A stretch of DNA of 64,000 bases from Pedomonas mirosovicensis (GTDB lineage: Bacteria; Pseudomonadota; Alphaproteobacteria; Sphingomonadales; Sphingomonadaceae), in the NCBI RefSeq assembly GCF_022569295.1, contig NZ_JAKFIA010000001.1:325001-389000 (forward strand), written 5' to 3'. The notes below the pieces were generated by a model. The model worked only from the letters and a program-made list of their open reading frames with translations. It was not told the origin of the DNA and made no database searches. This document shows positions 4,184-50,650 of this stretch, piece after piece. A program made the translations under genes and the position numbers. Positions within the stretch are counted from its first letter, which is position 1, and every line of letters begins with the position of its first letter.

Positions 4184-5079
4184 CTCCACCGCCTCCGAAC
4201 CTGGAAGTAACGTTGTCAGCCGCCTGTTGGCTGGCCTTCTCCACCGCCTTCACAAGCGTCACGGCGACGGCACGCTGCGCCAGAGCCTCGAGGACGTGAT
4301 CGAGGAGCACAGAATCCGACGCCGAGCAGGACGATTTGTCCCTGGCGGAGCGGACCATGCTCCGCAACCTGCTGAGCTATGGCGAGTTGCGGGTGGACGA
4401 CGTGGCGGTGCCGCGCCCGGACATCATCGCCTTCGACGCCGCCGGCAGCTTCGATGAGCTGGCCCGGCTGTTCGCGGAGGCGGGCCATTCGCGCCTGCCG
4501 GTCTACCGCGAGAGCCTGGATGCCATCATCGGCATGGTCCACGTCAAGGATGTCTACCAGCATCTGGTCCAGCCATCCGACGCGGGCCCGCCCAGGGTTG
4601 AGCAGCTGCTGCGCTCCGTGCTGTTCGTGCCGCCCTCCATGCGGATTCTCGATCTTCTGGCCCGCATGCGCGCCAGCCGCACCCACATGGCCATCGTGGT
4701 TGATGAATATGGCGGCACCGATGGCTTGGTGACCATCGAGGACCTCGTCGAGCAGATCGTCGGCGAGATCGAGGATGAGCACGACGAGGCCGAGGCCAGC
4801 CTGCTGCGCCAGCTGCCCGGCGGCATCTATGAGGCCGATGCCCGGCTGTCCGTGACCGAGCTGGAGACCGAGCTGAACACCGACTTCCTGCCGGAAGACG
4901 ACGACAGCGACATCGACACCGTGGGCGGGCTCATCTTCGTGCTGGCCGGGCGGGTGCCCGCCATCGGCGAGGTGATCGAGCACCCCTCCGGCTATCGGTT
5001 CGAGATCGTGGACGGCGAGCCCCGGCGCATCACCCGGGTGCGCGTTCATCCGCCCGCCGACTCTGAGGCGGAGGGCTGA
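4176..5079 (+). CDS. CorC/HlyC family CBS-domain protein, with an apparent 1-base frameshift
   Basis: Cytoplasmic hemolysin/CorC-type protein with paired CBS domains (about 4440-4770) and a C-terminal CorC_HlyC transporter-associated domain (about 4790-5040), linked to magnesium/cobalt efflux. The N-terminus begins at ATG 4176 (MTDSTASEPG...) and is open to about 4310. The continuation ESDAEQDDLSLAERTM is in the next frame and runs to 5079. One extra base between 4308 and 4315, around GAGCACAGAATCC, would fuse the two. Read literally, the longest ORF is a truncated protein from ATG 4336. Position after ybeY and before lnt matches the conserved alphaproteobacterial order. Confidence 0.83.
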
Positions 5080-15725: not shown

Positions 15726-15890
15726 TGCAGGAGGGTTTTAAACCCTCCTGCACCTCCCATTCGTTTTTCAGGGACGCGCGAACGGCATCGCCCAATCCAT
15801 CCCCCGGTATCCGAATGGGCCACGCCCGCGATGACGCGCACGGCCCGCTAAAACGAATGGGGTGCAGGGGTCCAAGACCCCTGCAAAAAG
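15726..15890. repeat. Full-length palindromic intergenic repeat, copy 1 (infB-rbfA)
   Basis: Left arm: a 27-base near-perfect palindrome TGCAGGAGGGTTT / AAACCCTCCTGCA at 15726-15752, then CCCATTCGTTTT. Right arm: AAAACGAATGGG at 15850-15861, then the hairpin TGCAGGGGTC-CAA-GACCCCTGCA (15863-15885) and AAAAAG. The arms are inverted around a roughly 80-base centre containing GCGCACGGCCCG. The same layout recurs at 48467-48636, and single arms occur at other intergenic sites in the window. Both hairpins could terminate transcription outward. The surrounding infB-rbfA gap (15579-15941) shows no gene. Confidence 0.8.
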
Positions 15891-15941
15891 ACAAGAAAAC
15901 GTATTAACGACAGGGCTCACAAGGCCGAAGGACACTGAACC

Positions 15942-16427
15942 ATGCGTCATCAAACCACCGATACCGGCCGCTCCGTGCGTCTGCTGCGCGTGGGCGAGCA
16001 GATCCGCCATGTGCTCTCCGAGGTGCTGGCGCGCGGCAACGTGCAGGATGACGTGCTGGCCAACCATCTCGTCACCGTGACCGAGGTGCGGATTTCGCCT
16101 GACCTGCGCCATGCCACCGTGTTCGTGGTGCCGCTGGGCGGTTCGGACGAGGCGGAGGTGATGAAGGCCCTGCGCCGCAATGCGCGTTTCCTCAAGGGCG
16201 AGGTCGGCCACCGCATCCGCATGAAGTACACGCCGAACCTCGTGTTCCGGGTGGATGAAAGCTTCAACGAGGCGAGCAAGATCGACACTCTGCTGCGCGA
16301 TCCGCGCGTGGCGCAGGACCTGGGCCGCTATCAGCCGCCCGAGGATGATGACGACGAGGACGGCGAGGACACCGGCCCACGCATGATCTCCGGTGGCGAT
16401 GATCCGGAAGACACCGGCCGGGAGTAA
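15942..16427 (+). CDS. rbfA: Ribosome-binding factor A
   Basis: Binds the 16S 5'-terminal helix during late 30S maturation and cold adaptation. The KH-like fold is recognisable from [34 protein letters not shown] and [20 protein letters not shown]. The last 40 residues are an acidic Asp/Glu tail beyond the core domain, making 161 aa in total. It follows infB after a 363-base gap filled by a terminator and a palindromic repeat, so it may be transcribed separately from infB. Confidence 0.94.
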
Positions 16428-16447
16428 GCTCTACTGAACTGCCAAGC

Positions 16448-16480
16448 ACGGCCTCGATCCCTGATCGGGGCCGTTGTCTT
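16448..16480 (+). terminator. Terminator after rbfA
   Basis: 12-bp stem ACGGCCTCGATC / GATCGGGGCCGT with one wobble pair and a 3-base loop, followed by TGTCTT. It lies 21 bases past the rbfA stop and separates rbfA from the inserted Abi-type gene. Confidence 0.65.
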
Positions 16481-16616
16481 ATCGGCAGTCTGGAAAAGAG
16501 CGGGACGCTTGTCCCCAGAAACACGTTACCCCGGGCGCATGCTGGAAGCAGAGGCGGCACCGGGGTGTACAAGAGCTAGATAGCGTAACGGCGGGGATCA
16601 TTCAAGCTGAATCGGC

Positions 16617-16660
16617 ATTTTACAATATTTCTATTATAGTCCTTATTATATAACCGAGGC
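16617..16660 (+). promoter_or_regulatory. AT-rich promoter-like segment upstream of the Abi-type gene
   Basis: A 44-base AT-rich island (TTTACA, TATTATA and TTATTATATAA elements) 35-75 bases before the ATG at 16693, in sharp contrast to the GC-rich surroundings. TTTACA resembles a -35 box, but no -10 sits at the ideal 17-base spacing, so the exact promoter is not assigned. Confidence 0.35.
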
Positions 16661-16692
16661 CGATCGCATTGAACTGACGATTCGGACTCTAG

Positions 16693-17340
16693 ATGCTTCT
16701 GACGCCCCTCCAGACAGCGTTTTCTCAGGAAAGGATGGGGCGTTACCTTGAATGGTCAAACGGCGACCCGGCTGCTGCCGTCCAGCTTTACACCCTGAAC
16801 GCCCAGTTTTCCGAAGCGCTCTACATTCCACTGCAGGTGCTGGAGCTTGCGCTCCGCAACCGGGTGCATGGCGTGATGAGCGGCGCGTATGGCGAGGGGT
16901 GGCTGCTGGAGGCCGGTTCTTGTCTCCGTGACAAGCAGAAGCAAAAGGTCCAGCATGCGCTTGATGACCTCAACCGGAACCGCAAGGCGCCTACACCGGG
17001 ACGGGTGGTATCCACGCTTTCCTTTGGGTTCTGGACCGCCCTGCTGGGCAGGGAATACGAAGAGCTATGGCGTAAAGTGCTGCATCAGATCGCACGCACG
17101 CCGAGCGGAAAGGGCCTTCCACGCAAGAGTCTGTCAGGCCCCCTCAAAACTATTCGCGAATTGCGTAATCGGATCGCTCATCACGAATCGATCCTTCATT
17201 ACGACCTGCCACACTACCATGCCGACATCCGCCAGATCATCGGCTGGCTGTCGCCCGAGGCGGAGCAATGGTGCGCCGAGTGCGACCGCTTTCCAGCGCT
17301 CTACCAAGCCAGCACGTATCAACTGGCGAGAGCAGCCTGA
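16693..17340 (+). CDS. Abi family protein (Abi_2/AbiD-AbiF type) with a HEPN RNase motif
   Basis: A 215-aa protein with the Abi_2 layout: an N-terminal helical part (YTLNAQFSEALYIPLQVLELALRN, listed in part as NAQFSEALYIPLQVLE) and a C-terminal IRELRNRIAHHESI, where R158-x4-H163 is the HEPN catalytic signature. Members of this family include abortive-infection proteins AbiD and AbiF, and HEPN motifs usually cut RNA, so a phage-defence role is plausible. The gene is alone, inserted between rbfA and truB with its own AT-rich upstream region. No antitoxin partner or mobile element is visible. ATG 16735 is an alternative start. Confidence 0.78.
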   Translation: MLLTPLQTAFSQERMGRYLEWSNGDPAAAVQLYTLNAQFSEALYIPLQVLELALRNRVHGVMSGAYGEGWLLEAGSCLRDKQKQKVQHALDDLNRNRKAPTPGRVVSTLSFGFWTALLGREYEELWRKVLHQIARTPSGKGLPRKSLSGPLKTIRELRNRIAHHESILHYDLPHYHADIRQIIGWLSPEAEQWCAECDRFPALYQASTYQLARAA

Positions 17341-17454
17341 AATCACCGCCGGGTATCAGGTAAGGGCTTGTCAAACGGCCCGCCAGCCGTGACATGAGGG
17401 CGCTTCGGACACGGCGTCGGCCGTGCCATTGTCGTTACGAATCCTGAGTAGCCC

Positions 17455-18369
17455 ATGACCGCACCGAGCCCCGCCCCCGCCAAGCTCCACGGCTGGCTGA
17501 ACATCGACAAGCCCCTGGGGATGAGCAGCGGCCAGGTGGTGGCCGCCTGCAAGCGCATCTTGCGCCCGGTCATGCCCAAGGGGTGGAAGATCGGCCACGG
17601 CGGCACGCTCGACCCGCTGGCGACCGGCGTTCTCCCCATCGCCTTGGGCGAGGCGACGAAACTCACCGGCTATATCCTCGACGCCACAAAGGGGTACGAC
17701 TTCACGTTACGCTTCGGCGAGGCCCGCTCGACGGACGACGGCGAGGGAGAAGTCATCGCCACCTCCGACATGCGCCCCGGCGAGGAGGCCATCCGCGCCG
17801 CCCTCCCCCGCTTCTTGGGCGAGATCGAGCAGGTGCCGCCCATCTATTCGGCGCTGAAGGTAGACGGCGAGCGGGCCTACAACCTCGCCCGCGCCGGCGA
17901 GACCGTGGAGCTGAAGGCCCGCCGCATCACCATTCACCGGATCGACCTGGTGGACATGAGCGCGGATGAGGCCCGATTCTCCGTTCTCTGCTCCAAGGGC
18001 ACCTACATCCGCTCGCTGGCGCGGGACATCGCGCAAGCGCTGGGCACGGTCGGTTACGTCTCCGCGCTAAGGCGCACCAAGGCGGGGCCCTTCACCCTGC
18101 AAACCGCGATTCTGCTGGACAATCTTGACCGACTCGTTCAAGACCACCAACCGGAACAGGCGCTTTTGCCTGTGACCGCAGGGCTGGACGACATCCCGGC
18201 TCTGGCGGTCGACCCCCGCGAGGCTCTCCTGCTGCGGCAGGGCCAGAGGCTCGACGGGACCTCCCTTCGCCCAGGGACCTACATGGCGATGGATGGGCAG
18301 ACGCCCGTTGCCATCGTTGAGGCCATTGCTGGCCAGGTCCGGGTGCTGAGGGGGCTCAACCTGACGTGA
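17455..18369 (+). CDS. truB: tRNA pseudouridine(55) synthase TruB
   Basis: Forms pseudouridine 55 in the T-loop of tRNAs. The catalytic aspartate is Asp53 in [14 protein letters not shown], and the active-site segment [16 protein letters not shown] and the thumb-loop region follow. [15 protein letters not shown] and [15 protein letters not shown] are further family motifs. Length 304 aa is standard. Only 10 bases separate it from rpsO, giving the classic truB-rpsO-pnp order. Confidence 0.96.
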
Positions 18370-23904: not shown

Positions 23905-23935
23905 GGGGTGCAGGGGTCCGAGACCCCTGCAAGAA
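23905..23935. repeat. Palindromic intergenic repeat, single arm (copy 2)
   Basis: Hairpin TGCAGGGGTC-CGA-GACCCCTGCA (23909-23931) preceded by AAAGGGGG and followed by AAGAAAA. The stem is the same as the right arm of copy 1, with a different loop. The rest of the element is missing or too diverged to see. It lies just past the end of the usp gene and can serve as its terminator on the minus strand. Confidence 0.7.
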
Positions 23936-27560: not shown

Positions 27561-27583
27561 TGCAGGGGCCTGAGGCCCCTACA
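27561..27583. terminator. Terminator hairpin between convergent copB and the DUF2333 gene (repeat-like)
   Basis: TGCAGGGGCC-TGA-GGCCCCTACA: stem of about 9 pairs with one C/A mismatch, preceded by TTTTT. It resembles the hairpins of the palindromic repeat family (TGCAGGGG... core) without the ATTCGTTTT element. It is 8 bases past the copB stop. Confidence 0.65.
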
Positions 27584-50524: not shown

Positions 50525-50650
50525 TGCAAGGGTCGCGGACCCCTGCACCCTATTCGTTTTCAGGACCGCGCTGACCGTGCGTGCGCCAGAAACGCGGCCC
50601 GATAAGGAAAGGGGGATCGCCAAGGGGCCCCGCGACCCCCTTGGCAAAGA
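50525..50650. repeat. Palindromic intergenic repeat, copy 6 (gst-gltB)
   Basis: Left hairpin TGCAAGGGTC-GCG-GACCCCTGCA (50525-50547, one A/C mismatch), then CCCTATTCGTTTT. The middle has AACGCGGCCCGATAAGGAAA, and the right side has the hairpin GCCAAGGGG / CCCCTTGGC (50619-50645) followed by AAAGAG. The ATTCGTTTT motif is kept on the left and diverged on the right. It lies 6 bases beyond the gltB stop. Confidence 0.75.

Follow-up and report, generated by a model that had tools for sequence, protein, structure and literature searches.

The sequence analysed here, called the window throughout, is a stretch of 64,000 nucleotides from Pedomonas mirosovicensis, in which an Abi-type gene, here abi, separates rbfA from truB. 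The genes and features between and around the two flanking genes are as follows, with the evidence in brackets.

15942–16427, plus strand: rbfA, the left flank (open reading frame; tblastn to relatives)
16448–16474, plus strand: terminator-like stem after rbfA (terminator scan)
16493–16570, minus strand: proposed antitoxin RNA transcript with putative ends (promoter position, terminator-like site, fold)
16501–16517, minus strand: terminator-like stem followed by CTCTTTTCC, for the minus-strand RNA (terminator scan)
16528–16566, minus strand: conserved RNA hairpin, the proposed antitoxin, with outer stem ACCCCGG/CCGGGGU, CUC bulge and inner stem UGC/GCA (covariance model, covariation, fold)
16577–16582, minus strand: RNA promoter −10 box TATCTA after a 17-nt spacer, a weak consensus match in a conserved place (letters, comparison)
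16600–16605, minus strand: RNA promoter −35 box TTGAAT, its place conserved in relatives (letters, comparison)
16612–16640, plus strand: possible abi promoter, TCGGCA-17-TATAGT, weak, 0.3 such expected by chance (promoter scan)
16693–17340, plus strand: abi, 215 aa, an AbiF/Abi_2 HEPN protein and predicted RNase toxin (open reading frame, Pfam, alignment, fold)
17164–17181, plus strand: codons of the HEPN motif R158-N-R-I-A-H163 (letters; conserved in a 60-row alignment)
17455–18369, plus strand: truB, the right flank (open reading frame; tblastn to relatives)

An earlier sequence-only reading of this DNA had given the gene the span 16617–17340. The open reading frame is real, but an in-frame TAG lies immediately 5' of the ATG at 16693, and a start at 16617 takes in the promoter region. 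The AT-rich upstream region and the terminator before the gene that it described were both recovered, the former as a G+C of 0.376 at 16600–16692 against 0.662 for the window and the latter as the plus-strand stem at 16448–16474. An imperfect inverted repeat at 16656–16690 lies directly 5' of the start codon and may affect toxin translation; by eye, no Shine–Dalgarno sequence is evident before the start.

The abi protein matches Pfam Abi_2 (PF07751) over residues 10–167 with 36.6 bits (curated cut-off 25.6), while the Swt1-like HEPN family reaches 25 bits, below its cut-off of 27.5, and NCBIfam gives no real match. The best PADLOC models are PD-T4-5 (6.9e-10) and AbiD (3.7e-08), both weak and of partial coverage. 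The HEPN signature R-x4-6-H near the C terminus is present as R158…H163, and R158, N159, R160, H163 and H164 are invariant across all 60 alignment rows, the window row included; the motif named earlier is thus intact. Among the matches listed, the closest relatives of the protein are about 50% identical. The AF2 model has a mean pLDDT of 95.1. A sequence search of the PDB with the protein gave just a weak Csm6 row (E 0.14), and none of the 50 Foldseek rows listed reached E ≤ 0.001; the sole row with probability 1.00 among them was 8vz6 (E 0.01), the structure of PbAbiF bound to its noncoding RNA. Re-alignment to 8vz6 gave Z 13.4 and rmsd 3.1 over 203 of the 215 residues at 14% identity, and the next-best chain had Z 5.6. 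Helical bundles can reach Z values of about 13, and the 8vz6 score lies well above the other rows of the re-alignment. As 8vz6 stands out among the fold matches, the protein is AbiF-like, beyond being HEPN-like, and its predicted model has the AbiF fold.

The position of the gene had been read as the interruption of a conserved order in a ribosome-maturation cluster, an unusual and meaningful site with a possible link to translation. We found truB in 97 of 98 genomes and took its region from all 58 genomes of the same family (Sphingomonadaceae). In 44 of these the fetched stretch has rbfA on the strand of truB and upstream of it; the other 14 showed no rbfA, some of them being cut off by the end of the contig or stretch. 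The gap between the two genes is tight in just 3 of the 44 (−20, −22 and 23 nt), the nearest relative by TruB (68%, G055) having this form, and measures 454–4700 nt and is filled in the other 41 (loci among L039–L096). Six of the gap open reading frames were tested and encode a thymidine kinase, a GNAT acetyltransferase, an M50 peptidase, an S41 peptidase, an AbgT transporter and a DUF6491 protein. Outside the family but within the order, both genes were seen in 8 loci and lie close together in all of them, with alignment gaps of −12 to 107 nt; these loci come from 8 of the 39 such genomes looked at. The arrangement in the other families and in G055 suggests that the tight order is probably ancestral and that the Sphingomonadaceae junction is an open site.

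An abi gene was found at the junction in 0 of the 44 genomes and in the truB region in 0 of the 58, so the finding that would have told against an inserted gene, its presence at this site in most relatives, did not appear. Likewise, in 155 other abi loci, whose flanks are often short, rbfA is within reach in none and truB in one, about 3.4 kb off and on the other strand. The broken conserved order of the sequence-only reading is thus only partly right: the two genes are close in the loci seen from other families, but within the family uninterrupted junctions are a small minority and other sequence fills the rest. A meaningful placement finds no support, and a link to translation through gene position is rejected. 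The premise is better put as an open, integration-tolerant spot in a ribosome gene cluster.

Between rbfA and abi, and read away from abi, sits the hairpin at 16528–16566. Heuristic hairpin finders located a stem in 58 of 82 upstream regions, and after five doubtful loci (L150, L152, L171, L177, L187) had been dropped, 53 were aligned on both strands. The consensus of the homologues, in plus-strand reading, is ACCCCGG-CCGCRTGCC-loop-GGCAGAGRCGG-CCGGGGT, and the distance from stem to protein match is nearly constant (48–125 nt in the 53 rows). On the minus strand, RNAalifold gave 14 pairs in three helices with the CUC bulge, 8 of the pairs being changed on both sides, and 96.8% of cells were paired, with 23 further pair types and a covariation score of 0.261; the separately made plus-strand alignment had 91.5% of cells paired, 12 further pair types and a score of 0.137. 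Read on the minus strand, the pair cells of 52 distinct rows include 45 G–U against 3 A–C, the former spread over 10 of the 14 pair columns and the latter over 2, though the rows are related and the cells are not independent events. An 81-nt stretch with the hairpin folds at −33 kcal/mol (z −3.1).

We built a covariance model, R1, from the 53 rows including the window, whose own match is then by construction, and therefore also a leave-one-out model, R3, from the 52 other rows. R3 matches the window at 16518–16574 on the minus strand with 69.0 bits (E 3.4e-22), the next match in the 64 kb reaching 13 bits. It is the single RNA match beside abi, and no tandem-repeat array was found in 16300–17500. 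These comparisons indicate that a conserved structured RNA adjoins abi on the minus strand.

The signals expected at the two ends of such an RNA are also present. A sigma70-like −10 box stands at a fixed place, 35 or 36 nt before the core end, in 42 of the 53 loci, and the mean promoter score on the minus strand is 8.15 of 12, while shuffled sequence scores 6.49 and the other strand 6.60. The window row falls outside this set of 42, and the free scan settled on another site there. At least five T in eight follow the hairpin on the RNA strand in 41 of the 53 loci and on the opposite side in 1. In the window, where the best stretch has 5 T in 8, the hairpin has no direct U-run of the kind common among its relatives, and its RNA probably needs a second stem to terminate; judged by its letters, the stem at 16501–16517 with its T-rich tail can end the RNA. 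Altogether, 6 terminator-like sites were found on the two strands of 16300–17500, where 0.9 were expected. By these signals the RNA is directed towards rbfA, and the terminator-like stems at the ends of the two face each other.

The same RNA accompanies relatives of abi from several phyla. The genome scan for abi homologues confirmed at least 562 stretches, and in the best 80 of these R1 matched 55 loci at E ≤ 1e-3, all on the minus strand and upstream of abi; 52 of the 55 are training rows, and L170, L154 and L178 are from outside training. Seven weaker matches (E < 1) share this strand, the exceptions being a weak plus-strand match overlapping the strong one in L120 and a weak match elsewhere in L153, and 8 of the 80 loci have no convincing RNA. 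Further matches from outside training, upstream of abi and divergent, came from 6 of 31 viral contig loci (E ≤ 1e-3) and from the plasmid locus L236. Three plasmid RNAs duplicate training rows and are not independent (L233 is identical to L115, L234 to L112 and L235 to L119), and the same holds for L003 (identical to L159) and for L200 and L201 (identical to L198/L199); the upstream sequence of L100, from the same family as the window, is the same as that of L170.

Over the whole genome of the window R1 has one strong match (69.9 bits) and a second of 28 bits (L224), which we took as noise; no abi-like open reading frame was noticed alongside, and the open reading frame just before it is presumably a topoisomerase/gyrase subunit A-like gene. 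Scores above 60 bits occurred in 2 of the 98 genomes, both beside abi, and scores of 22–28 bits in 4 others, all without an abi homologue. Of the 6 genomes among the 98 with an abi homologue, 4 have no R1 match, which suggests that some homologues in the order have another RNA type or none.

A second model, R2, was made from 18 loci, the majority with an RNA that has CCUCUCCC as its core, with rows chosen by eye and L167 taken on the plus strand, and was run on 28 of the 31 viral and 17 of 19 Bacteroidales loci. It adds the divergent viral locus L216 (L200 and L201, also matched, duplicate training rows). Bacteroidales, the order of the L167 genome, have an abi homologue in 15 of 247 genomes, and R2 finds an RNA beside 11 of the 17 loci at E < 1e-9, two of them overlapping training. 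Ten of the 11 are divergent, as are 3 weaker matches, and one lies on the abi strand (L240, the same as L167). In L167, at 4905–4969 on the plus strand, the RNA gene is therefore on the strand of abi, unlike the other clear-match loci, preceded by a TATATTTGC sequence, which we take to be a Bacteroidota promoter, and followed by a T run on the plus strand. By its sequence, this is a natural inversion of the RNA gene.

Several neighbouring observations concern related loci. Six (L102, L103, L105–L108) carry another minus-strand hairpin upstream of abi, in several of them with a GNRA- or UAAC-type loop, beside a terminator-like stem; neither R1 nor R2 scores them well, and by eye they look like a further class of AbiF RNA. 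Also by eye, L247 and L248 have yet another minus-strand hairpin upstream of abi, built around GCCUCUUU and accompanied by a terminator-like stem, and R2 does not match it. Upstream of the RNA, 28 of 113 loci (L112–L115, L118–L120, L233, L235 and L236 included, and near copies counted) have an HTH_36/DnaD_N-type gene; its product may be a third component or a plasmid passenger, and no such gene was found in the window. L004 (G058) holds a truncated abi homologue, its C-terminal 133 aa at about 49% identity, with no R1 or R2 match, and from its sequence appears to be a decaying copy. In L110 (2930–3044), both strands of a long near-perfect inverted repeat are matched by a plant miRNA model, presumably by shape alone.

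The "lone" or "solitary" Abi gene of the sequence-only reading needs correcting as well. The window gene is the sole Abi_2 match in the genome, but that description overlooked the conserved RNA partner and a 32% identical relative elsewhere, an Abi_2-like gene under the Pfam cut-off (G000:C1:570333-570938; L008, L097). A weak, divergent R1 match (13 bits) lies just upstream of this second gene, which is possibly part of a toxin/RNA pair of another class.

Rfam 15, including RF03085 (abiF RNA), has no match at the window hairpin, and the best RF03085 match in the genome lies elsewhere (21.6 bits, cut-off 37). None of 7 genomes with related loci exceeded the RF03085 cut-off, and neither did any control genome, so this comparison had no positive control. 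In the homologous loci, the Rfam abiF model gave no match in 36 at E up to 1 or 5 and none in 14 at the gathering score. As RF03085 misses both the window hairpin and the homologous loci, this comparison gives no support for homology to a proven AbiF antitoxin RNA. The best Rfam row near abi, Clostridiales-2 at 15850–15935 (26 of 58.6 bits), was discounted; it overlaps a palindromic repeat. This palindrome, GCAGGGGTCNNNGACCCCTGC, is dispersed at 15864–15884, 23910–23930 and 50526–50546 and, more weakly, at 27562 and 34964; five matches with up to 3 mismatches lie in the window, where 0.07 are expected, and by sequence it is a REP-like repeat.

The relatives of abi have the mobile, defence-type kinship that had been proposed for an Abi_2/HEPN protein. 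They occur in 842 of 72,556 plasmid records and in 7 of the 50,697 from phages, and 31 came from 2.9 million viral contigs searched by pattern; the best plasmid match, from Gluconobacter albidus, is 54% identical. In the order, abi is patchy (17 of 396 genomes). In a tree of 97 rows, the window protein groups within 21 rows (support 98/89) that include Rhizobiaceae, Acetobacteraceae, Caulobacteraceae and Lysobacteraceae among others and none of the 12 taken from its own order, and its terminal branch is long (0.69). The gene has a G+C of 0.597 and a GC3 of 0.69, against 0.677 and 0.872 in truB. Patchy presence, plasmid match, tree placement and lower G+C and GC3 fit a horizontal gain, which these comparisons make likely; the tree singles out no one recent donor.

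We consider it probable that the locus is an AbiF-kind toxin with a divergently transcribed RNA antitoxin, a type III-like pair gained horizontally between rbfA and truB. The family, the intact motif, the AbiF fold, the conserved minus-strand RNA and the association of RNA and gene are established computationally, while toxicity, RNA–protein binding and neutralisation are carried over by analogy from the AbiF proteins of Clostridioides difficile and Prevotellaceae. The abi protein would be a dimeric HEPN ribonuclease cutting single-stranded RNA. The hairpin RNA of about 80 nt, made from its own minus-strand promoter and transcribed away from abi, is predicted to inhibit the protein by binding to it and blocking the active site. 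Loss of the RNA, as might follow if a phage shut off or degraded the RNA of its host, would free the enzyme to cut cellular RNA and stop growth, by which an infection might be aborted or the module kept in the population; the trigger and the phage protection are conjectural parts of this scheme.

Instead, the hairpin could regulate abi, either as a DNA operator bound by a protein or as an attenuator in a plus-strand leader. The nearly constant upstream distance would suit such a role, and the lactococcal AbiD1 gene has a structured 5' UTR that controls its translation (PMC12373285). A DNA operator would have no strand bias, whereas the G–U cells of the related rows are strongly one-sided and the minus strand carries a positioned promoter and U-rich tail; nor would an operator or leader easily survive the turning round of the RNA relative to abi in L167 and L240. 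The strand tests (pairing, G–U and U-rich tail) reject the plus-strand leader, and we regard a regulatory element of either kind as unlikely.

We give still less weight to a stand-alone abortive-infection RNase that works without an important RNA partner and might act on translation. Abi_2 proteins do include abortive-infection systems, and abi does lie between two ribosome-maturation genes; against this, the RNA is conserved beside relatives of several phyla, and the filled junctions and the 155 loci away from rbfA and truB speak against a role tied to the site. Least probable of all, and only barely credible, is a decayed or domesticated copy without activity. Loss of activity is conceivable for a protein whose listed relatives are only about 50% identical, and the lower G+C and GC3 and the long end branch point the same way, but the reading frame is uninterrupted, both catalytic residues (R and H) remain and R3, built without the window, still gives the RNA 69 bits. 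The toxin with its divergent RNA antitoxin therefore remains our preferred reading.

A broader proposal, which we hold tentatively and at somewhat less than even confidence, is that a large multi-phylum AbiF branch keeps its RNA antitoxin as a separate, divergent, self-terminating RNA gene outside the toxin operon. If so, two opposed promoters, rather than terminator read-through, would set the toxin dose, and the RNA gene, of a family not found in Rfam 15, would be able to flip, as in L167/L240. AbiF–RNA systems as such are already known, and covariance models of AbiF RNAs exist, by Zilberzwige-Tal et al. (named in PMC12804078). No description of a divergent AbiF RNA was found in the literature searched, which was accessible in part and to which Zilberzwige-Tal et al. 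(Cell 2025) and Weinberg et al. (2017) do not belong; if not already described, the opposite-strand arrangement changes how the ratio of toxin to antitoxin is set. Once an RNA missed by standard annotation is taken into account, the "lone Abi gene" becomes a pair that can be tested, and with the covariance models built here the RNA partner could be located beside many AbiF-type genes.

Among known systems, the classical type III operon has its antitoxin RNA on the strand of the toxin, co-transcribed with it, and as a tandem repeat; in the window, by sequence evidence, the RNA is on the opposite strand, and it has no tandem repeats. The ToxIN toxin fold differs from the AbiF-type fold. ToxIN-type systems resemble the proposed pair in joining an RNA antitoxin to an RNase toxin and differ in their tandem-repeat antitoxin and same-strand operon, where the window has a single divergent hairpin (PMC12373285). 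The AbiFCd–RCd22 pair of C. difficile phi027 is closer, with an Abi_2/AbiF protein, an upstream hairpin RNA and a spacing of R202 and H207 equal to that of R158 and H163; this AbiF is toxic, and its RNA neutralises it by direct binding (PMC12373285). RCd22 lies on the strand of the toxin, is co-transcribed through a leaky terminator and has two RF03085 motifs (PMC12373285), whereas the window RNA has one motif, the opposite strand and no RF03085 match. Hairpin RNAs accompany AbiF-type proteins, which are reported to be relatives and likely ancestors of Cas13 (PMC12373285, PMC12737573, PMC12165695). Phage defence is a role reported for the AbiF family. Lactococcal AbiD and AbiF share the Pfam family of the window protein, which the PADLOC AbiD and PD-T4-5 models match, weakly and in part.

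The nearest structural parallel is the AbiF–AbiFr pair of a Prevotellaceae bacterium (PbAbiF, PDB 8vz6), reportedly the work of Zilberzwige-Tal and colleagues in Cell in 2025. It differs from the window protein in sequence (14% identity) and agrees with it in fold over 203 of 215 residues and in the R-x4-H spacing, and its partner is likewise a small hairpin RNA with a single-stranded bulge, a likeness of the RNAs known from description rather than from sequence. PbAbiF with R210A and H215A is inactive (PMC12373285), and AbiF is a non-specific single-strand ribonuclease held by AbiFr through bulge nucleotides (PMC12737573). The same catalytic spacing, the AbiF fold and the bulged hairpin RNA thus point, by analogy, to a toxin and its RNA antitoxin between rbfA and truB.
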